Positions 5,061 through 30,847 of a stretch of DNA of 33,506 nucleotides are shown here, in pieces. This DNA comes from a virus: positions 1-33,506 of the IMG/VR virus record IMGVR_UViG_3300006033_001313; one strand, written 5' to 3'. The notes beneath the pieces are model-generated. The model had not been told where the DNA came from. It worked only from the letters and a program-made list of their open reading frames with translations, and did no database searches. The first letter of the stretch is position 1. Each line of letters starts with the position of its first letter. Both the position numbers and the translations under genes were made by a program.

Positions 5061-5747
5061 TCAGGCGTCGAGGCGCTTCCAGACCTTCGCGTTGGTGCTG
5101 CCATCGTAGTCCACAGGCCGCACGATGACCGCCCCCGCGTCGGGGTCCGTGTTGATGGCATCCGTGCCTTCGAAAAGACGGAAGGTGGCCAGTTGATCGA
5201 GACCGCCAATGCTGACAAAAACATCAGCCTGGAAACCTACCTGAACATCCGTGGTGACAAGGCTGTCGAGGTCCGTTTCGGTCCCTCCCACAAGGCCGTT
5301 GATGGAGTAAAGATTGGCGACTTCGTTGATGTTCATGAGCGCGAGAGGGCTGGGGGTGGCGATGTCGGGACTGACGGCCAAAAGGGAGTAATGAAACCGG
5401 TTGGAGACCCCCAGGCGCTCATTGCGGATGCTCGTCACCCATGCCTGGGCGTAGGTGATTCTGCTGCCCTCATGCTCCTCGATCAGCACACCGCCTTTGG
5501 GGCATTGAGCCAGCACACTGCGGCTCTGCATCAGCGCATCCTCCAGCGTCGCGCATGGCGGATACACGACGGCATAGCTCAGCGGGATGCTGCGGCTCGC
5601 CCGCTCTGGCCAGGCGCTCAGCCAGTCGGCGCGGCTCAGCAGCGCTGACTGAGTCTGCTGCTGCATCTCCACAGTCTCGTCTGACAACACCTGGCAGGTG
5701 CGGTCGATGCCATTGGCGATCGCGTAATCCTCAAGTGTGATCGTCAT
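5061..5747 (-). CDS. Distal / minor tail protein candidate
   Basis: 228 aa, beginning in an ATGA overlap with the tape measure gene. The gene directly after the tape measure in siphophages usually encodes the distal tail protein or a hub adaptor. No catalytic motif is visible. The sequence is mixed alpha/beta, with an N-terminal helical part (LEDYAIANGIDRTCQVLSDE) and a C-terminal beta-rich part ending in WKRLDA. Role inferred from gene order only. Confidence 0.65.
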   Translation of the reverse strand: MTITLEDYAIANGIDRTCQVLSDETVEMQQQTQSALLSRADWLSAWPERASRSIPLSYAVVYPPCATLEDALMQSRSVLAQCPKGGVLIEEHEGSRITYAQAWVTSIRNERLGVSNRFHYSLLAVSPDIATPSPLALMNINEVANLYSINGLVGGTETDLDSLVTTDVQVGFQADVFVSIGGLDQLATFRLFEGTDAINTDPDAGAVIVRPVDYDGSTNAKVWKRLDA

Positions 5748-8023
5748 AGCTTCGATGTCCTCACTTGTGCAGAAAGGTTGCTCACCGCATTTTTCAGCGC
5801 CGTGATCTGCTGCTGTTGATCTCCGAATCGCTTCGTGATGATTGGCGTCAGGGCCTCCACTAGCTGCACCACATGCTGCATTTCCTTGGCCGTCGCTCCG
5901 CCTTCACGCAATTGCTGCACGGCCTTGGCCAGTTCGCTGCCAGCCGGTCCGAGATTCTGCGCCAGATTCGACAGCGGCCCGATCAAGCTGCTGGCATCAG
6001 TCACAGCTTCAGGCCTGCCTTTGGAGGCTTTGTCACGCGCAGCGCGTTCACGCTCCTGAGCGTCGAGATCGACGCCTCGCTTCTCCTCGGCGGTGGCTGT
6101 GGGACTCAGCTTGGTTCGGGCGGCATCACCGCGTTTTTTGGCCGCACCCTCAGCATCGCCTTTGATCTCCAGTTCCTTCGCGTCATTCTCCGCTTTGCGC
6201 GCAGCCTCTTCGCGTTGTTTCTTGTCGCGGATTTCCTGCTGCTTCTGATCGGCGATCTTCGCATCGGTGATGCGCTTGGCTTCGGCGGCCTCGGCTTCCG
6301 CCTGCTGCGCCAGCTGCTGAGCCTTGAGGAGCATGCCCTGCTTTTCAAGAGAGAGCAGCTCCAGTTTCAGTTCAAAGATCTTGGCGTCAGCATCAACTGC
6401 CTCCTTGCTCGCTTTTGCTGCGGCCTCGGCATTGTCAGCCGCTTGTTTTTCCGCCTCTTCATAGCGGCGATAGCTGTTGAGATCACCGCGAGACTTGGCG
6501 TCTTCCTTGGCCTTGTCAAATGTGAGGCCCTGACCGCTGCGCAGCCTGGCTTCATCTTCGGCCTTGGTGACATCTGCCTCCTCGCGCTGCTGGATGAATT
6601 TGTTGCGGCGCTCGTTTTCCTTTTCGGTCAGATCACGGCCAAGGTTGTCCAGACCGTCCACACCGGCCTGCGCTGCGATGGACGATTGACGCCGTCGCGC
6701 TTGGTCGGACTGCGTTCCGAGGCCCCCACTCTGGGATTGATTTTGCTCACGCAGATTGTCCGCCGTCTGCATGGCTGCATCACGGGCGGCCTCGGCATCC
6801 TTGATGCGGGCCTTGAGGCTGTTCTCCGCCAGTTCCTGCGCACCCCGGGCGCGGTCCATCGCCTCGCCTTTGCCGCGATCTGTGAGCTGGCCTTTTTGCG
6901 CATCAAAGCGGCTGTTGATCGCGGCACGCTCTTCATCGGTCTTGGCGCTCCCGAGCTGCCGCTGTCGGTCTGTCTCCAGCTGAGCCACAGCAGCAGCCTC
7001 TTGAGCCTTGGCCAGTGCGTTCTGATACCCCAGCGCCTCGCTGATATGCCCTTTTTGTTTGGCCCATAGTTCCGTGGCCTCACGCAGTCCGGCGAGATAC
7101 TTGTCGAACCGCGTGTCGAACAACTGGCCTGAAGCCTGCACGGCGTCATTGATTGCACCGGCCAGCGCCTCGGTTTTTTCCTTGGCCTCTTCGGTCTGCT
7201 GGGCCGCCTCTTTCGCGCCGCCAAATTTTTCCCACAGCACATTCACCGCCACGGCGGCCACACTGATGACACCTGTCAGGCCCCCTCCCAGCCCCAGCAT
7301 GAGCGCAAGCTGCGGGATGTTGTTCATGATGCCCCGCAGGCCGTACTGCGCATCGTCGGCAAAGTAGGCCATTGCCAAAGCCGCGTTGCCAATGTCCCCT
7401 TTAAGACCGCGCATGCCTGCCGCCGTGCGGCCTGTCTGCGCCTCCACCTGCTTGAGGCGTTCCACTTCCTCGCGTGGATCATACGCGCCCTGTCCCATGA
7501 CTTCGCGTGTGATGCGCTGATCTACGCTCATCTGCCGTGCTTCAGCGACAGAGCGCTCCAAATCACGCTGCTGCTGAAGATCGGCAATGCGTTTGCGCCG
7601 CGCCGTTTCTTCCTGCTCCTGAGCCAGCCTGTCCTCTTCCCGGCGTCGGCGCTGCAATGCGATCGCATCCTCAGCATTCTGCTTTTCCTGCCGCTGTTCC
7701 GCCGCCCGGATCTTGGCCTGTTCAATGCGTTTGGCTTCCGCCGCTGCCGCCTCCTGGAGATCGAGGACCATCTTCTCCAGCTCGCTGTTGAATCGATCCA
7801 GACCCACATCGCCTGCCGTGTTCAGCTTGGCGATCAGCGCGTCCATGCCGGAAAGCGCCTGCTGGATAAATTCAGGGGTCGCCCCTTCCGCAGACAGCGC
7901 TGCGGCGAGGTTGGACTTAAGATCAGCCGTCAGCGCGTCAACCTCAGACTTCATCTCCCGAACCCCGGAGGGATTGGCAGTGGCCTTTAACTTGATCTCA
8001 ACGCTGGCAGATTCATTGCCCAT
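5744..8023 (-). CDS. Tail tape measure protein
   Basis: 759 aa. Residues 80-200 and 290-640 are long, highly charged Ala/Glu/Lys/Arg/Gln-rich coiled coil. A single hydrophobic block lies at about 237-264 (QLALMLGLGGGLTGVISVAA onward), typical of the membrane-active segment of tape measure proteins. It sits between a small chaperone-like gene and the distal tail gene, the expected location. In this class, protein length sets tail length, so 759 aa suggests a tail of moderate length. It is the longest leftward gene after the hub. Confidence 0.9.
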   Translation of the reverse strand: MGNESASVEIKLKATANPSGVREMKSEVDALTADLKSNLAAALSAEGATPEFIQQALSGMDALIAKLNTAGDVGLDRFNSELEKMVLDLQEAAAAEAKRIEQAKIRAAEQRQEKQNAEDAIALQRRRREEDRLAQEQEETARRKRIADLQQQRDLERSVAEARQMSVDQRITREVMGQGAYDPREEVERLKQVEAQTGRTAAGMRGLKGDIGNAALAMAYFADDAQYGLRGIMNNIPQLALMLGLGGGLTGVISVAAVAVNVLWEKFGGAKEAAQQTEEAKEKTEALAGAINDAVQASGQLFDTRFDKYLAGLREATELWAKQKGHISEALGYQNALAKAQEAAAVAQLETDRQRQLGSAKTDEERAAINSRFDAQKGQLTDRGKGEAMDRARGAQELAENSLKARIKDAEAARDAAMQTADNLREQNQSQSGGLGTQSDQARRRQSSIAAQAGVDGLDNLGRDLTEKENERRNKFIQQREEADVTKAEDEARLRSGQGLTFDKAKEDAKSRGDLNSYRRYEEAEKQAADNAEAAAKASKEAVDADAKIFELKLELLSLEKQGMLLKAQQLAQQAEAEAAEAKRITDAKIADQKQQEIRDKKQREEAARKAENDAKELEIKGDAEGAAKKRGDAARTKLSPTATAEEKRGVDLDAQERERAARDKASKGRPEAVTDASSLIGPLSNLAQNLGPAGSELAKAVQQLREGGATAKEMQHVVQLVEALTPIITKRFGDQQQQITALKNAVSNLSAQVRTSKL

Positions 8024-8034
8024 GGTGGCAGGTC

Positions 8035-8421
8035 TCAGATCTTGGCAACATCGGCCTTGGCATCTTCATAGCGCCTCTCGTCTGCGGGAGAAGGCACGCA
8101 GCCGATCGCGCAGAGGAATCCGCAGGCCGCCCCAGCCAGGGCGGCGGCGGGGTTGGTCGGATGCCAGTCCGTGCGTGTACTGATCAGCTTGCCCGCCAGG
8201 CTCGCGATCTGCTCAGCCTTCATTCCGGCGCGTTCAGCACGCTGAACCAGCTTGGCCCAGCGCTCCGGGCCAAAGTAGTTGCCCAGCGTTTGCACGGCCT
8301 CTGCATTGACTTTACGCAGGGCTTCCAGCTTGGACGCCACTTCATCAGGGATGACAATATCAACGCTGCCAGAAGCGGCTGGAATGGCGTTGGCGGGGGT
8401 GTCTTTGGATCTTGCGGCCAT
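8035..8421 (-). CDS. Tail assembly chaperone candidate
   Basis: 128 aa, mostly helical, between the tail tube gene and the tape measure gene, the usual place of the tail assembly chaperone. The C-terminal part (AAALAGAACGFLCAIGC) is unusually rich in small residues and Cys. Only 11 bases separate its stop from the tape measure start, leaving no room for the long frameshifted extension made by lambda G/GT or Mu. If this is the chaperone, it is probably the unframeshifted type. Assignment is positional. Confidence 0.6.
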   Translation of the reverse strand: MAARSKDTPANAIPAASGSVDIVIPDEVASKLEALRKVNAEAVQTLGNYFGPERWAKLVQRAERAGMKAEQIASLAGKLISTRTDWHPTNPAAALAGAACGFLCAIGCVPSPADERRYEDAKADVAKI

Positions 8422-8453
8422 GGTGTCAGGAGGATGGAGGTTCAGAGTGATGA

Positions 8454-9392
8454 TCAGGATTCAGGAGCAGCCACATCGATGTAGCCCGGTGCCACCTGGG
8501 CACCCGCGCTGTAAGACTGCGAGGCGCGGAACATCAGGCCGTCGATGAAGTCAGACCCCGCGCCGATCTTGAACTGCGCCTCTTTGCACGTCGCACCGCG
8601 CAGTTCGACGTGGAAACCGGAGTAGCTAACCGTCAGCAGCGCTCCGGGCAGGACGGCACCCATGGCCAGATCATAGCCGCAGGCTGTGTTGATCTGGGCG
8701 AACGTCAGGCCGTAGGGCTTGAACTTGGCGGTGAGCTCCTGGCTTTCCAACGTCCAGTCGCGAATCAGTTCGTTGACGCGAACCTCAGGTGTCTTCCATT
8801 CCAGCGTGATCTCGATGCCATTGGCTCCCTGCGCATTGGTGAACAAACTGCCGTAGCTGACAAGGGGTGCCAGTGTGAGGATCTTGCTGGGATCATAGCT
8901 GCTGAAGTCGGGGAAGGTTCCGCCTGTGGAATAGGTGAAGAAAGCCCCGCTCGCGCCGGGCTCCTTGTTGCTGGCGCATACAGCCGCAAAGACACTTGGC
9001 CCCAGCAGTGTCTTGCCCGGAACGCTGGTGAGCGTGGGCCGCTTGATGAAGCCGCCACGCGGAAAGTCCCACTGCCGCCCGCTCTGCGTGACCAGCCTCC
9101 AGGCCGTATCCGTGGTGCCCAGGATGCTTGCCCCCAGGTCGCTGCTCAAATGCGGGAAGAGCAGTGGCAGGTATTCAAACTCGCCTGCAAACGTGGTGTC
9201 AATCTGGTAAAACAGAGACTTGATGCGCTGCTCCGCCGTGGCATGCATCGCCGCAGGCACGTCGAAATACTCCACCGCAGGCTTGATCTGAAATTCCTTC
9301 TGCGGCCAGAAGTAGGACGGCGTTTCGCCATCAGGATCACAGATAAGAACGGCGGGCTCACGGATGGCGATGGTGGATAGGTCGAAGGACAT
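8454..9392 (-). CDS. Major tail tube protein candidate
   Basis: 312 aa, beta-rich, with the start in MSFDLSTIAIREPAVLI. It lies upstream of the chaperone and tape measure genes and is the first gene after an intergenic copy of the late element (9416-9464). This fits a highly expressed tail subunit. No sheath gene is seen next to it, which points to a non-contractile tail. The C-terminal part (KFKPYGLTFAQINTA onward) resembles tube proteins in having long beta stretches, but I cannot name a specific family. At 312 aa it is longer than many tube proteins, so an extra surface domain is possible. Confidence 0.6.
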   Translation of the reverse strand: MSFDLSTIAIREPAVLICDPDGETPSYFWPQKEFQIKPAVEYFDVPAAMHATAEQRIKSLFYQIDTTFAGEFEYLPLLFPHLSSDLGASILGTTDTAWRLVTQSGRQWDFPRGGFIKRPTLTSVPGKTLLGPSVFAAVCASNKEPGASGAFFTYSTGGTFPDFSSYDPSKILTLAPLVSYGSLFTNAQGANGIEITLEWKTPEVRVNELIRDWTLESQELTAKFKPYGLTFAQINTACGYDLAMGAVLPGALLTVSYSGFHVELRGATCKEAQFKIGAGSDFIDGLMFRASQSYSAGAQVAPGYIDVAAPES

Positions 9393-23013: not shown

Positions 23014-24006
23014 TCACATGTCTTTGGTGATTTTGGCAACGGGATAGATCCACGCGAAATCGGCGCGGCTGTACTGCATGGGAGGATAAGCGGGATTGTA
23101 GGAGCTGAGGGTCACGCGCTCTCCATTGGCTTGATAGAGTTTCACCATCACATCCCCTCCATTGTCCTCATTGAGACGGGCGATGACCACGCAGCCATTC
23201 TTGGGCGGCTTGCTTGGGTAGATCAAAGCCACGTCTCCCGGTTCAATGCGCGGGATCATGCTGTCACCCGACAGAGTGACAGCAAAAGCTTTCGGATCTT
23301 GGGGGTTGAATGCCAGAAAGCCTTCCCCTGTGTATCCGCCGTCATCCCATGCCATTGAGGTACCACACTGCGCCATGGCGAGCAGTGGCACATACTTGGC
23401 TTTCATTCCAGGCGGAAGCTGGATGTCCGGCAATGCGCCAAAGGTTCCCTGCGCAGCGCCTCTCTCAACGGGATGATCAGAACCGTCCATGAGTTCTGAT
23501 ACGTCGATGCCGAGAATCTTGGCCGCCTTGCGGGCCATCTTTTCCCCCATCTGAGAACGCCCCTCTTCAATATCGAGGTACATGCTCACTTGCGAATATC
23601 CGATCGCTTTCGCGAGCTGCGCAGGCGTCATCCCCTTGGCTAGGCGTGCCTCCTGGAGCTTGGCCCTGGCCCCTGTCACATACGCGTGACCCTTTTCACC
23701 GACCAATGCCTGCGCAGGGGATTCCATTGCTCGATTGAAGGCAGCGTCTTGTTGATCATGAGTTCCACCATGCAATGCCGCAAGCCTAGCCGCAGCATCT
23801 ACACGCTCATGAATAGACAATAGGGCAAAGTCCCTTTCCAAGCGTTCGAAGTGAGCATGCAGGACAGCGCTAGGTTCCCTGCCACCCTCCAGCATGCTCA
23901 CATAGTTACGGGATACATGCAGCAGCTTGGCAAAGGCACTTTGCCCAAGGCCCATGTCTGCCCGCAGCTTTTTAATGCGTTCTGAAAATAATTTTGGTGT
24001 GCTCAC
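23014..24006 (-). CDS. Phage repressor: two HTH domains plus S24-type autocleavage domain
   Basis: 330 aa with a GTG start at 24006. HTH 1 spans about 17-45 (GMGQ-type helix, here GLGQSAFAKLLHVSRNYVSM). HTH 2 spans about 115-165 (AKGMTPAQLAKAIGYSQVSM). The C-terminal part matches LexA/CI peptidases: cleavage-site-like AMAQCG (C214-G215, Cys-Gly as in UmuD), the catalytic Ser in SGDSMIPRIEPGD (S249) and Lys in MVKLY (K289), 40 residues apart as expected. It should hold the early promoter off and be cleaved upon RecA activation, making induction SOS-dependent. Mu Repc is a different type. Two HTH domains in one repressor are uncommon. Confidence 0.85.
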   Translation of the reverse strand: MSTPKLFSERIKKLRADMGLGQSAFAKLLHVSRNYVSMLEGGREPSAVLHAHFERLERDFALLSIHERVDAAARLAALHGGTHDQQDAAFNRAMESPAQALVGEKGHAYVTGARAKLQEARLAKGMTPAQLAKAIGYSQVSMYLDIEEGRSQMGEKMARKAAKILGIDVSELMDGSDHPVERGAAQGTFGALPDIQLPPGMKAKYVPLLAMAQCGTSMAWDDGGYTGEGFLAFNPQDPKAFAVTLSGDSMIPRIEPGDVALIYPSKPPKNGCVVIARLNEDNGGDVMVKLYQANGERVTLSSYNPAYPPMQYSRADFAWIYPVAKITKDM

Positions 24007-24075
24007 TTTTTTACTTGAAGCCTGCTAACTGGATGCTAACAATGTGAGCACCTGAGCATTTCAACTGCTAACACA
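24007..24075. promoter_or_regulatory. Divergent switch region with repeated operator-like sites
   Basis: This gap separates the leftward repressor from the rightward Cro/Ner-like gene. TGCTAAC occurs at 24023-24029, 24034-24040 and 24066-24072; the first two are 11 bases apart, one helical turn, and the third lies 32 bases on. TGAGCA is repeated at 24045-24050 and 24053-24058. GTGCTCAC (23999-24006, overlapping the repressor start) is the inverse of GTGAGCAC (24044-24051). Possible rightward -35 TTGAAG is at 24015-24020 and leftward -35 TTGAAA is on the minus strand at 24064-24059. Promoter assignments are tentative. Confidence 0.6.
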
Positions 24076-24273
24076 ATGAGCCACCAACCGCAATCCGATT
24101 TTTCCGTCCGGGTCAAGACCCGGCTGCTAAGCCACCGAGAGACACGCACCGTCTCAGCCTTGGCGCGCAAACTCAATTTTGCCCGTAACACGGTGAGCAT
24201 TGCCATCAATCACCCAACGATGCTTCCCAAGGTGAAGCAGCGCATCTGCCAATACCTCAAGATCGCCGCATGA
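24076..24273 (+). CDS. Cro/Ner-like early regulator
   Basis: 65 aa, first gene of the early operon. Residues about 20-48 form a helix-turn-helix (VSALARKLNFARNTVSIAIN). The small size, divergent position relative to the repressor and operator repeats upstream fit a Cro/Ner-type protein that limits early and repressor transcription after induction. Its stop overlaps the next start by ATGA. Confidence 0.7.
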   Translation: MSHQPQSDFSVRVKTRLLSHRETRTVSALARKLNFARNTVSIAINHPTMLPKVKQRICQYLKIAA

Positions 24274-24545
24274 GCTGGATTCGCCACAAGGGCCGCTTCC
24301 GCTGCTCCCTCAACCACTTCCTCTACGGCTTCATTTCCAGCCGTGAGTTTGCCGAACTGCTGGGCATGACCACCAAGAGAGTCATGCAGTGGCGCGACCG
24401 CCGCAGCGGCCCGCCTCAGTCCATGCTGCCGCAGTTCGGCTACGCAGTTCATCAGCTCGTCGAGCAGAGGGTCATCCCACCGCCTCGCTGCATCAGCAAG
24501 CTCAACCAAATCATGGGCTACGCCCCCACAGAAAAAGCCGCCTGA
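24270..24545 (+). CDS. HTH protein, excisionase/MerR-like
   Basis: 91 aa, ATGA-coupled to the Cro/Ner-like gene. Residues 22-50 (SSREFAELLGMTTKRVMQWR plus DRRSGPP) match the HTH_17/MerR-type pattern of phage regulators and excisionase-like proteins: a short helix, turn, recognition helix ending in Arg/Trp, then a PP turn. A transposable phage needs no excisionase, so a regulatory role is more likely. Confidence 0.65.
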   Translation: MSWIRHKGRFRCSLNHFLYGFISSREFAELLGMTTKRVMQWRDRRSGPPQSMLPQFGYAVHQLVEQRVIPPPRCISKLNQIMGYAPTEKAA

Positions 24546-24547
24546 TC

Positions 24548-25549
24548 ATGAACAATCGTTTCCCCACCGTCCCGCAGATCTTTGGCGCTCACCCGCGCTT
24601 TCAATACAGCGCCCCGTGGTCGGAGTGCCGCGTCATCCACGAGCATCATTGCATGGGCACGCACCTGCTCATTGTCGGAGATCCTGACAGCGGCGGTTAT
24701 GAATGGGTCATCCTCGTCAGCGGCAAGGTCCAGTCCCATTCCAATGACGGCTACGGCATCAGTGAAGTCGCCCTGCGTGACGGTCTGATTGAAGCCTTCA
24801 AGGACTGCTTCACCGCCAAGCCCAATCCGGCCCACAAGGAAACGCTGGAAAAGCACCATGACGCCATCACCGCCGCTGCGGCGGTCAATGCAGCCACTGC
24901 GGCGGAGTCCCATCATCGGGCTCAGCAGAGGGTTGCAGAGCTTTTGCTGCCAGTGCGTCAACGTGAAGAGGCCAAGAGTCCACCAGAAGCCAGCGCAGCG
25001 CCTCATACCGTGACGGATGCCCCTCCCAGCTCGCCAGCTGCATCGGGGCCAGCGTCATCACCGCCGCATTCAGACGCAGGCACGCCCACCACATCTGCTC
25101 TGGTGTCATCTCCGGCCATCTGCCCAGTCGGCACCAGTGCAGGCACGCCGCATCCATCTCCTCACGGCACCAATCCTCCTGTGCCCGCACCGCTGCTGGC
25201 AGCAGATCATCCGGGCAATGGCTCAGCAACCGCAGCAGCCGTTCCATCTCTTCAAGCTCCTGAGCCAACTGGGTCCAAAAAGGATTCAACATCCGCCCAC
25301 ACTGGCGAGTCCTGCGGAGACATCAACTGTGACGGCCGCTGCCAGCCTGCCACCGCGCCAGATCTGCGCCCTTCGCTGATCCGCAGCATCGATACCAGCC
25401 CCACGGTGGATGATGCCCGGGAGGCCACCGCCGATGCCACGCCCGACGCACTGCGAGCCGCCGCACGCTTCCTCCGCACGGACATGCACAGCCTCCCGAA
25501 CGTCCTCCTCCGCCGTGTCCGTGAGCGCCTCGCCAAGCCCGCTGCCTGA
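24548..25549 (+). CDS. Early protein with unusual low-complexity middle
   Basis: 333 aa from MNNRFPTVPQ at 24548; upstream residues of the longer ORF lie inside the previous gene. Residues 1-110 look ordinary, with a beta-rich part (GTHLLIVGDPDSGGYEWVIL) and a helix. Residues about 113-250 are Pro/Ser/Ala/Thr-rich with A/T-ending codons unlike the flanks. The final 80 residues return to normal usage, with a small Cys group (CGDINCDGRC) and a helical end (RFLRTDMHSLPNVLLRRVRE). The middle part overlaps a natural-looking antisense ORF. Function unknown. Confidence 0.65.
   Translation: MNNRFPTVPQIFGAHPRFQYSAPWSECRVIHEHHCMGTHLLIVGDPDSGGYEWVILVSGKVQSHSNDGYGISEVALRDGLIEAFKDCFTAKPNPAHKETLEKHHDAITAAAAVNAATAAESHHRAQQRVAELLLPVRQREEAKSPPEASAAPHTVTDAPPSSPAASGPASSPPHSDAGTPTTSALVSSPAICPVGTSAGTPHPSPHGTNPPVPAPLLAADHPGNGSATAAAVPSLQAPEPTGSKKDSTSAHTGESCGDINCDGRCQPATAPDLRPSLIRSIDTSPTVDDAREATADATPDALRAAARFLRTDMHSLPNVLLRRVRERLAKPAA
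24885..25292 (-). CDS. Antisense ORF candidate within the early gene
   Basis: 135 aa, opposite to the low-complexity middle of the early gene. It has a natural composition (Leu, Glu, Trp, Met; NPFWTQLAQELEEMERLLRL near the N-terminus, then MTPEQMWWACLRLNAAVMTL) and codons typical of the region, such as CTG, GAG and GCG. There is one in-frame start, ATG at 25292, without a visible ribosome binding site, preceded in frame by a stop. No promoter was recognised on this strand. It may be an overlapping gene or a fossil of an inverted insertion. Family not recognised. Confidence 0.4.
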   Translation of the reverse strand: MLNPFWTQLAQELEEMERLLRLLSHCPDDLLPAAVRAQEDWCREEMDAACLHWCRLGRWPEMTPEQMWWACLRLNAAVMTLAPMQLASWEGHPSRYEALRWLLVDSWPLHVDALAAKALQPSAEPDDGTPPQWLH

Positions 25550-25576
25550 ACCCATCACCACGCCACCGCTACCGCC

Positions 25577-25984
25577 ATGGACACCCAACCCATCATCAGC
25601 ATGCATGCCACCCTCGAAAAGATCGTGCGCTATCCGCACGATCCCATGACCAGCGCGGGCGCAGCGGACTGCCTGGGCGTCCATGCCAAGACGGTCAATG
25701 ACGGCGTGAGGCTCAACAAGATCGAAGGCACCAAGCAGAACCTGCGCAGGCACGGCAGCTCCCGCCGCTATCGCATCACCAAGGCTGCGCTCATTCGCTG
25801 GCTCTGGCAGAACGAAGGCGGGGACAAGCAAACGCTGCGCGCCGCGATGGAGCAGCTCTGCCCTCGTATTCTCAAGTCCATCGACGCTGAGGAGCGCCCG
25901 CAGACCGCGAAGCCCAAGGCCGCGAACGTGATCGAGTTCCAGCCTGATTTCTTTCTCCCACCGCCTGCCAAACAGACGTCCTAA
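25577..25984 (+). CDS. HTH DNA-binding early protein
   Basis: 135 aa. Residues 24-75 carry an HTH of the excisionase/MerR kind (SAGAADCLGVHAKTVNDGVR), then a basic wing-like stretch (RRHGSSRRYRITKAALIRWL). The C-terminal 45 residues are basic and Pro-rich. It belongs to the early operon between two unknown proteins. It is possibly a regulator or replication accessory. Specific target unknown. Confidence 0.65.
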   Translation: MDTQPIISMHATLEKIVRYPHDPMTSAGAADCLGVHAKTVNDGVRLNKIEGTKQNLRRHGSSRRYRITKAALIRWLWQNEGGDKQTLRAAMEQLCPRILKSIDAEERPQTAKPKAANVIEFQPDFFLPPPAKQTS

Positions 25985-26013
25985 CCCAAGACAACCACGC
26001 ACCACCCCAGACC

Positions 26014-27099: not shown

Positions 27100-27675
27100 A
27101 TGCAAACCACACCCGCCCATCCATCCGCCCGCGAAAAAGCCTCCCAGCTCGTCAACGACTACGCCCGCAAACAAGCCGCCCTCAAAGCCGCCACGGCTGA
27201 AACTCAGGCCAAGATCACCGCGCTGACAGCCGCACTCAACCAAGCCTCCGCGCCTTACCTGCTGGAGCTGGAGAGGATCGAAGCAGAGGCCAAGGCCCTC
27301 GCCTTGGAGAACGGTGAAGAAATCTTCGTGGGCATGCGCTCATTCACCGAGAACGGATTCACCTTGGCCCTGCGTGAGACCGCAGCCGTGCAGGTCGATG
27401 ATGAAGATGCCGCCATCCTCATGCTCAAGCGCGATAGCAACGCTGCGCACAAGGAAGTGGAGATCGCCTGCAATGCCTGCCTGCGCACCACGACCATCCT
27501 GGACCGCGAGTACATCGCCCGTCACTATGATGAAGCGCCGGAATGGTTCCAGCAATACGGCATCAGTGTCGTGGACAAGCTCAGCGCCAGCCTGAAGCCA
27601 GCGCCCAAGCCCCGCGCCAAGAAGGCCACCAAGATCAAGCCTGCGGATGAACCCGAACAAAAGGCGGCGGCATGA
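27100..27675 (+). CDS. Gam-like host nuclease inhibitor
   Basis: 191 aa; similar in size and layout to Mu Gam (174 aa), which binds DNA ends and blocks exonucleases and relates to Ku. Residues about 15-70 form a long helix pair (REKASQLVNDYARKQAALKA and ALNQASAPYLLELERIEAEA), residues 75-105 a beta hairpin (GEEIFVGMRSFTENGFTLAL), and the C-terminal part has the FIRTKKTIDKEAI-like segment (here CLRTTTILDREYIARHYDEA). A Lys/Pro-rich tail ends the protein. In Mu, Gam also lies in the early region, there after A and B. Confidence 0.75.
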   Translation: MQTTPAHPSAREKASQLVNDYARKQAALKAATAETQAKITALTAALNQASAPYLLELERIEAEAKALALENGEEIFVGMRSFTENGFTLALRETAAVQVDDEDAAILMLKRDSNAAHKEVEIACNACLRTTTILDREYIARHYDEAPEWFQQYGISVVDKLSASLKPAPKPRAKKATKIKPADEPEQKAAA

Positions 27676-28810: not shown

Positions 28811-30847
28811 ATGACTCAACTCGCCCTCCAAGCCGCAGACCAAGACGCCATCGGTCAACTGCCCGCCAAATGGCGCACCCTGTTCAACACGCGTCATCTG
28901 ACCCTATCGCAGTTCATGGGCGGGCAGCTCACGAAAGGGGAGGCCATGAACCGCCTGCATGTCAGCCGTGCCACCTTTGACCGCATGCTGGCCAAGGTGA
29001 AGGATCTGGGCTGGGTGGGCCTTGTCCCTCAATACAAGGGCGTGGGCCTCAGTGCTGATGAAGGACTGCCCGCCGAGTTCATCAGCTTTTGGAAAACACT
29101 CGTGGAAGGCAATCAACGCAAGATCGCCCCGGCGTATCGTTTGCTTGTCCGCATCTGGCGTGCCCGCCAGCCCTTCACCTTTCAAGAGGTGCAGTATTCG
29201 CACGTCCCCGGCTATGCAGGCTGGCCCGGCTGGCCCAACATCCCCAGCGGATGGGGTGGCAACGGTCGCAATCTCTATCGTCATCAGCCCTCCAAGCTCG
29301 CACTCACCGCCCTGCGCCAGGGCCTGGGCAAGGCGAAGCAGCTCTACGGCCCCAAGGTGATGAGCACCCGCGTGGGCCTCTGGCACCTCAGCCACATCAT
29401 GATCGATGACGTGAAGCTCGACATGAAGGCCCACCTCGGCGACAGCCGCAAGCCGGTCGTGCCTTTGCAGATCGGCGCTTTGGAGCTGCTCAGCGGAAAC
29501 CGCTTTGCCTATGGCATGAAGCCCCAGCTCTGGCGGGCCGATGGCACCCGGGAGGGCCTCAACGAAGGGGACATGCGCTTTCTCCTCGCTCACATCCTGA
29601 GCACCGAAGGTATCAGCGCCCGGGGCACCAGCTTTGTCATTGAGCACGGCACTGCCGCCATCCGTGATCGTGTGCGTGACATCCTCTCCCGCGCCTTTGG
29701 TGATAAGGTCGCCTTTGAAGACTCCGGTTTCATCGGCAAGACTCAGGCCCTCACAGGCATGGGCGATGGCAAAGGCGGCGGCGGCAATCCCAACCACAAG
29801 GCCGCGCTGGAAAGCCTGCACAATCTCATTCACAACGAGCTTGCATTCCTCCCCGCGCAGACCGGGCATGACCGCACCGAACCCGAATTCCTCGGAGCCA
29901 TTGAACGCGACCACGAAAAGCTCTGGAAGCTCGCCAGACGCCTCCCGCCTGAGGCCGTCAAGCTGCTCAAGCACCGCACCTTTGAATGGTACTCACAGCT
30001 TGTCCCCGCCGTGGCCTCTATGATGGATGTCATCAACCGCCGCGATGATCACAATCTCGAAGGCTGGCTTGAGCTGGGCTTCATCACCCGTCAATACCGC
30101 CTCATGCCCACCAGCAATGAATGGTGGACGGAGTCACAGCTCCTGGAACTGGCCCCGGCCTCCCGCAATGCCATCCTTGCCCAGGCCGATGCGGATCAAC
30201 GCTGCTGGCAGCCGTGCCGCCTCAGCCCGCATGATGTTTTCCAGATGGGCAGGGCCAAGGGAGAGATCATCAAAGCGCCGGAATCAGTCATCGCGGAGAT
30301 CCTCTATCAGGATCTCGCCAAGCCCCGCCGCGTGGCGGATGACGGCGTGTTCTCCTTTGAGGATCGCGAGATCGCCCCCGAGGTCATGCACTTTGAAGGC
30401 CGCGTACTCTGCCCCAATGGCCGCGAGATGGAACTCAAGTGGGGAGAGACGTACGAAACCGTCATCAACCCCTTCAACCGTTCCCTGCTCTGGGTGTATT
30501 CAGGCACCCGCCAGCGGGGCGCATTCCTCGGCATTGCACGCACCGTGCAGCGCCATTGCAGGGCCGATGCGGAAGGTGCTAAGCGCGCCTTTAAACGCAG
30601 CTCCCAGCGCCTCGCAGCCGCACTGGACGACACACGCGGCCGCAACGCCCATCTCACCCGCAATGAGACCGCCCGGCTGGAGCACAACCGCCGCGTCATC
30701 ACCGAACACGAAGCCCAGCTCAAAGAGCGCACCCGCCAGGGCACCGCCGCATTGGACGCCACCCTCAGCGCCTCCCTTTCAGACCATGCAACCGACACCC
30801 ACACCCAAGACACCACCGATGAAATCGACATCCGATCAATCTTCTAA
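28811..30847 (+). CDS. MuA-like DDE transposase
   Basis: 678 aa (MuA is 663). The N-terminal region binds DNA (HTH-like segment near 40-60). The catalytic core shows HIMIDDVKLD (D199 or D200), then SFVIEHGTAAI, where E278 is at the position of the second Asp, and AALESLHNLI with E334. The second and third residues are 56 apart, as in MuA (D336 and E392). A glycine-rich loop (GDGKGGGGNPNH) precedes the third motif. The C-terminal helical region probably contacts MuB. It joins phage ends to target DNA for integration and replicative transposition. The Glu in place of the second Asp is unusual. Confidence 0.85.
   Translation: MTQLALQAADQDAIGQLPAKWRTLFNTRHLTLSQFMGGQLTKGEAMNRLHVSRATFDRMLAKVKDLGWVGLVPQYKGVGLSADEGLPAEFISFWKTLVEGNQRKIAPAYRLLVRIWRARQPFTFQEVQYSHVPGYAGWPGWPNIPSGWGGNGRNLYRHQPSKLALTALRQGLGKAKQLYGPKVMSTRVGLWHLSHIMIDDVKLDMKAHLGDSRKPVVPLQIGALELLSGNRFAYGMKPQLWRADGTREGLNEGDMRFLLAHILSTEGISARGTSFVIEHGTAAIRDRVRDILSRAFGDKVAFEDSGFIGKTQALTGMGDGKGGGGNPNHKAALESLHNLIHNELAFLPAQTGHDRTEPEFLGAIERDHEKLWKLARRLPPEAVKLLKHRTFEWYSQLVPAVASMMDVINRRDDHNLEGWLELGFITRQYRLMPTSNEWWTESQLLELAPASRNAILAQADADQRCWQPCRLSPHDVFQMGRAKGEIIKAPESVIAEILYQDLAKPRRVADDGVFSFEDREIAPEVMHFEGRVLCPNGREMELKWGETYETVINPFNRSLLWVYSGTRQRGAFLGIARTVQRHCRADAEGAKRAFKRSSQRLAAALDDTRGRNAHLTRNETARLEHNRRVITEHEAQLKERTRQGTAALDATLSASLSDHATDTHTQDTTDEIDIRSIF

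Follow-up and report, generated by a model that had tools for sequence, protein, structure and literature searches.

The early gene at 24548..25549 (+) of a Mu-like phage has a middle part that can be read in two ways, as a Pro/Ser/Ala-rich linker on the plus strand and as a protein of 135 residues on the minus strand (24885-25292), and the question is which of the two readings selection maintains. The window analyzed is the IMG/VR virus record IMGVR_UViG_3300006033_001313, positions 1 to 33,506, a stretch of 33,506 nt. A preliminary description had considered either an overlapping antisense gene or an inverted insertion that kept both frames open. The first proposal was largely supported, by the ORF in relatives, constraint on the minus frame and a homologue outside the phage context; the second was not, as no other part of the window resembles the segment apart from short chance matches. 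We consider it likely, with good confidence, that 24885-25292 (-) is a real protein-coding gene nested antisense in the early gene, that selection sees a small, probably all-helical protein, and that the sense protein reads the same DNA as linker.

The phage and its relatives

The window belongs to a Mu-like transposable phage whose relatives include prophages of Prosthecobacter (Verrucomicrobiota), and the carrier bacteria are Prosthecobacter-like. The Mu-like marks present are a MuA transposase, a MuB-like ATPase, Gam and a repressor beside the early operon (phrog_310, phrog_296, phrog_491, phrog_4). The MuA-like transposase (28811..30847, +; phrog_310, E 9e-13) is closest to those of the relatives L002 (74% identity) and then L003 (69%), and a Mu Gam-like protein is encoded at 27100..27675 (+; phrog_491, E 1e-8). 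The phage repressor, HTH plus LexA/S24-like (23014..24006, -; PHROG repressor, E 4e-38), lies on the strand of the antisense gene, opposite to the plus-strand early operon. A repressor is found left of the locus on the minus strand in all five phages compared, those of the relatives being read from translations.

Relatives of the sense gene were found in four phages or prophages, which with the window make five. L002 (IMGVR_UViG_2861701969) has the sense gene at 5164-5940 and an antisense ORF of 123 codons; L003, a prophage of a Prosthecobacter MAG (G001:C81), has them at 5580-6443 and with 131 codons; L004 (IMGVR_UViG_3300006805_003639) at 8001-8693 and with 110 codons; and L008, a second Mu-like prophage of the same MAG (G001:C97), at 1120-1899 and with 115 codons. 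Comparison of related phages at the 400-base segment, a check proposed in the preliminary description, showed that each of the four has an antisense ORF (110-131 codons) in the equivalent early gene, with place and phase unchanged. In the window and in all four relatives both frames are open across the full overlap, on opposite strands and with one nested in the other. Around the distant MuA loci of the genomes G025, G050 and G070, a member of the antisense family was absent from the regions examined.

The early operon of the window opens with two short HTH-like genes (24076-24545). The second of these (24270..24545, +), directly upstream of the sense gene, is 78% identical to the gene upstream of the L008 overlap, which as a sequence match supports synteny with L008; the remaining early genes differ nevertheless, and this suggests mosaic exchange. 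In the genome searches, further carriers of the upstream HTH gene or of the sense C-terminal domain were found in the Prosthecobacter MAG G001 only.

Anatomy and codon usage of the two frames

The sense protein has 333 aa and consists of an N-terminal domain, an open linker rich in Pro, Ser, Ala and Thr, and a C-terminal domain with the motif CGDINCDG; Pfam and PHROG searches with the gene gave no match. The gene is modular. One N-terminal domain (about 97 aa) is common to the window, L003 (85% identity) and L004 (79%), and L002 and L008 carry others; the C-terminal domain is 52% identical between the window and L008. The segment coding for CGDINCDGRC (25313..25345, +) lies just downstream of the overlap. 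The motif, in the form CGDIN(C/G)DG, is kept in four of the five phages (window, L002, L003 and L008) and absent from L004. Where it is kept it is flanked by extra Cys, and its two forms, CGDINCDG and CGDINGDG, presumably resemble a dockerin-type calcium loop. The domain that follows the motif is found in the window and L008 and is missing from L002 and L003. Opposite the antisense ORF of L004 (8317-8646), the sense frame encodes less Pro, Ser and Ala, and the sense gene ends shortly past the antisense start.

The antisense gene (24885..25292, -) runs from an ATG at 25292 to a stop at 24885-24887, wholly within the sense gene, and its product of 135 aa is predicted to be all-helical. The protein contains 22 Leu, 12 Glu, 10 Trp and 7 Met, and the commonest codons are CTG (16), TGG (10), GAG (10) and GCG (8), so the composition and the CTG/GAG/GCG codons given in the preliminary description agree with the counts. 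A sigma-70-like promoter was sought from 24000 to 26000 and none was found, and no obvious Shine-Dalgarno sequence was seen for the antisense gene.

Over the overlap the plus strand does not look like the rest of its gene. Pro, Ser and Ala make up 51% of the sense protein inside the overlap, 22% before it and 32% after it, and the GC content at plus-frame codon positions 1/2/3 is.62/.43/.75 before,.71/.68/.485 inside and.71/.61/.79 after, in line with the earlier remark that the middle has A/T-ending codons unlike both ends. Read on the minus strand, the same segment gives.70/.485/.684, the normal order of a gene. Synonymous codon scores were computed with a codon model built on the phage's own genes, with 88 ordinary 135-codon gene windows as controls. 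Inside the overlap the plus frame scores -0.09, lower than any control window (minimum -0.005), and the minus frame +0.085; control windows in that antisense phase reach at most -0.048, and 5,000 synonymous randomisations of the plus gene at most 0.046. These strand-specific codon scores had been proposed as a check, and together with the positional GC and six-frame log-odds they bear out the observation that the codon signature switches strand over the segment and then reverts. The minus frame has a log-odds of -0.08, compared with +0.3 for an ordinary gene and -0.6 for an ordinary shadow. It is less gene-like than a free gene, and an intermediate score is expected if both frames are constrained.

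Open length by itself is weak evidence for an antisense gene. The window contains 103 ORFs of at least 100 aa, and ORF length as the only evidence was rejected. The window span is open in 5-7% of synonymous randomisations, and none of the 88 ordinary gene windows is open in the same antisense phase (mean 6.4 stops). For a given sense protein, the probability of an open minus frame is.07 in the window,.185 in L002, below.0005 in L003,.057 in L004 and.015 in L008; that of an open plus frame, given the antisense protein, is.05,.11,.30,.09 and below.0005, respectively, and since the five phages are related and not independent, these probabilities cannot simply be multiplied. The plus frame is open in five of five against chance expectation, and therefore it too seems to be maintained.

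A sense protein with an ordinary low-complexity Pro/Ser/Ala linker might by itself produce such an ORF as a passive shadow, because NCN codons become NNG on the other strand and leave few stops. This fits the 51% of Pro, Ser and Ala in the window segment and the minus frame open in 5-18% of randomisations given the plus protein (window, L002, L004). It leaves unexplained the collapse of plus-strand codon bias, which coincides exactly with the antisense ORF in all five phages: the plus GC3 inside the overlap is.46-.52 against.72-.76 expected (in the window, 0.48 against 0.727 +/- 0.037), and for each phage 0 of 2,000 synonymous randomisations was as low. An invariant start codon and an isolated homologue, both described below, are likewise unexplained, and the conserved minus frame and neutral plus frame of the relatives contradict a passive shadow, which we regard as unlikely.

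The direction of causation that we favor is the reverse: the antisense gene is probably real, and the Pro/Ser/Ala-rich linker its shadow. In this phase the third position of minus-strand codons pairs with the second position of plus-strand codons. By the proposed mechanism, G-ending antisense codons make the plus-strand codons that they face NCN (Pro, Ala, Ser, Thr), and the low-GC second position of the antisense gene leads to A/T-ending plus codons. The sense protein would read the overlap as an open, presumably disordered linker rich in Pro, Ser, Ala and Thr between two coded domains, and its only need there would be the lack of stops and a roughly linker-like composition. An antisense coding signature beyond what the sense gene forces is present in the window and its relatives and is weakest in L008. 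The minus frame is closer than the plus frame to the codon usage of the phage in four of the five; in L008 it is not better than the plus frame.

The antisense start codon (25290..25292, -; CAT on the plus strand) is invariant in all five phages and lies inside TTCATCCGCC-like DNA, in a stretch (CATC) that is itself invariant and is located near that end of the overlap. The plus codon over the start is Ser TCA in four phages and Thr ACA in one; TCA makes up 8.6% of the Ser codons in these phages.

The antisense protein family and selection on each frame

Aligned over their full length, the L002 and L008 antisense proteins have 37% identity (E 7e-17), and the transposases of the two phages are only distantly related. 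A further homologue, L012, was found in a bacterial chromosome, G058 (L012:1498-1857; G058:C16:30480-30836), between an enolase-superfamily gene and an SGNH-hydrolase-like gene (names read from translations), with no phage gene around. It thus provides the free homologue of the antisense family that had been proposed for search. L012 lacks both flanks of the sense gene, and the retention of the antisense gene with neither flank favors the antisense gene as the unit. It keeps both phases open and has overlap-like codon usage (GC3 0.54, compared with 0.72 in the neighboring gene); it may be a recently stranded phage fragment or relic rather than a long-independent gene.

Constraint in both frames, another check from the preliminary description, was compared on the alignable antisense proteins only, those of L002, L008 and L012 (two phages and one isolated chromosomal copy). 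Frame-blind nucleotide alignments were used, and for the neutral expectation the substitutions were re-dealt at random with their types kept. For L002/L012 the minus frame has a z of about 6.1 and the plus frame 0.5; for L008/L012 the values are 4.0 and 0.2, and for L002/L008 3.2-3.6 and -0.2 to -0.4. As controls, the procedure was repeated on ten ordinary plus-strand genes or domains from the same phages, which gave z of 4.4-18 in their own frame and -0.4 to -4.2 in the shadow frame. The minus z resembles the own-frame controls and the plus z is near neutral; by this test the minus frame acts as the coding one. On these alignments it shows purifying selection in L002, L008 and L012, and the plus frame appears to evolve as if neutral. 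Compared with a pure shadow, the plus frame is kept slightly better, which agrees with a weak requirement, for instance that it remain open. The preliminary description had named as contrary evidence a conserved plus-strand linker with an unconserved minus-strand protein and no free homologue; the opposite was found.

The same results bear on two other explanations. The locus might yield a functional antisense RNA, like lambda OOP or BTP1 STnc6030, with the ORF incidental; the position antisense to an early gene and on the repressor's strand agrees with this, and prophage antisense RNAs with superinfection roles are known (PMC7067206). However, an RNA would give neither codon-position-specific constraint on the minus frame nor a minus coding bias, and would not explain a protein-level homologue at 37% identity, so that this account is highly improbable. 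The locus might also be a relic, a gene inserted inverted (or captured) in the sense gene with both frames open by luck and now unexpressed. The intermediate codon signature would suit a relic, as would the different slot contents of phages with the same flanks (window, L003, L004). A dead insert would be expected to lose the minus frame first, whereas that frame is under purifying selection in L002/L008/L012 and start codon and phase are retained in five of five; in addition, there is no source copy in the window. A relic is very unlikely.

The product of the window itself is a distant, weakly supported member of the family of L002, L008, L012 and L004, as judged from sequence comparison. A pairwise shuffle test with L004 gave z 4.1 (p 0.007), and an hhalign profile comparison with the family gave E 0.002, collinear over 64 columns, with a probability of only 14%. 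HMMs of the strong family do not find the window protein (p 0.94 with three members, 0.08 with four), BLASTP against L002, L003, L004 and L008 returned nothing significant, and searches of viral contigs, genome contigs and phages found no relative. Neither Pfam nor PHROG has a family matching the window protein or its counterparts. The structure models are of low confidence (pLDDT 57 and 60) with the same helix order in both, that of the window being four-helix; fold searches with them gave nothing below E 0.3. The L003 antisense ORF is unrelated to the other antisense proteins. Weak genome matches (L013-L016 and L020-L022, E 1e-4 to 1e-2), of which L020 lies antisense within a long host gene, were taken as chance. 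The case for an antisense gene in the window consists mainly of codon signature, position, phase and start codon.

Slot turnover, possible role and known systems

The content of the slot does not follow its surroundings. Between the window and L003 the N-terminal domains are 85% and the transposases 69% identical, and the antisense ORFs are unrelated; L002 and L008 have related antisense genes, but only distant transposases. The mismatch in both pairs indicates that the content moves or diverges independently, and from these comparisons the slot seems to exchange its contents. The single MAG with two different Mu-like prophages (L003 and L008) has an antisense ORF in each equivalent early gene, and the two proteins are unrelated. 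As a tentative and rather speculative extension, the middle of the early gene could be a dedicated slot for antisense cargo, in which Mu-like Prosthecobacter phages swap small minus-strand genes, always in the one phase where the sense protein gains an open, disordered linker from the complement of the cargo. If this were true, a lysogeny gene would be carried without added DNA and without a broken lytic gene.

The two genes would be used in mutually exclusive states. The sense gene would be read as part of the early lytic operon, and the lysogen would use the antisense gene, read from the strand of the repressor; it is natural to guess that this happens when the early operon is silent. Translation, the disorder of the linker and this mutually exclusive use we infer. 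Because of position and turnover, we favor a putative lysogeny-side accessory (moron-like) role for the antisense protein, such as superinfection control.

Whether prokaryotes have fully nested antisense genes is disputed, since the evidence is mostly expression alone. At this locus the recurrence in five phages, the invariant antisense start and a substitution test that separates the two frames and includes internal controls all point one way, and the constrained frame is, unusually, the antisense one and not the frame that gene finders would be expected to call. A warning is suggested: where a GC-rich phage gene has a Pro/Ser/Ala-rich linker with odd third positions, that linker can reflect a real gene on the opposite strand, and such shadow linkers are easy to scan for. 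A limited literature search found no description of the present locus. It is unusual in that related phages repeat the arrangement in the same phase, that the content is exchangeable, and that the antisense frame, rather than the sense frame, is constrained.

Overprinted viral gene pairs are mostly same-strand overlaps in viruses of eukaryotes. In such pairs codon usage has been used to tell the older frame (PMC3744397), and it serves as a guide here as well, with the minus frame scoring closer to the phage in four of five, although the present pair is antisense and located in a phage. Nested antisense genes are known or claimed in bacteria, among them nog1, asa, laoB and ano of E. coli, and such embedded genes are mostly judged young and are known from expression or phenotype (PMC7457138). 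The present locus is likewise a complete ORF nested antisense in a coding gene and missed by standard annotation, but it is known from comparison across phages, and selection at the overlap acts on the antisense, not the sense, frame. Antisense overlaps of at least 50 nt are annotated in many dsDNA viruses (490 genomes, 26 families; PMC7017920); the present one is also an antisense overlap in a tailed-phage genome. That survey is of annotated overlaps, whereas the nested gene described here recurs in the same phase in four other phages, and its two frames were tested for constraint. The Salmonella prophages BTP1 and ST64B carry accessory (moron) loci and antisense RNAs opposite lytic genes (PMC7067206). 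Like the present locus they lie opposite lytic genes, as is typical of loci expressed in lysogeny, and vary in content; the locus described here, by contrast, is protein-coding, lies fully inside another gene and is known from sequence alone.
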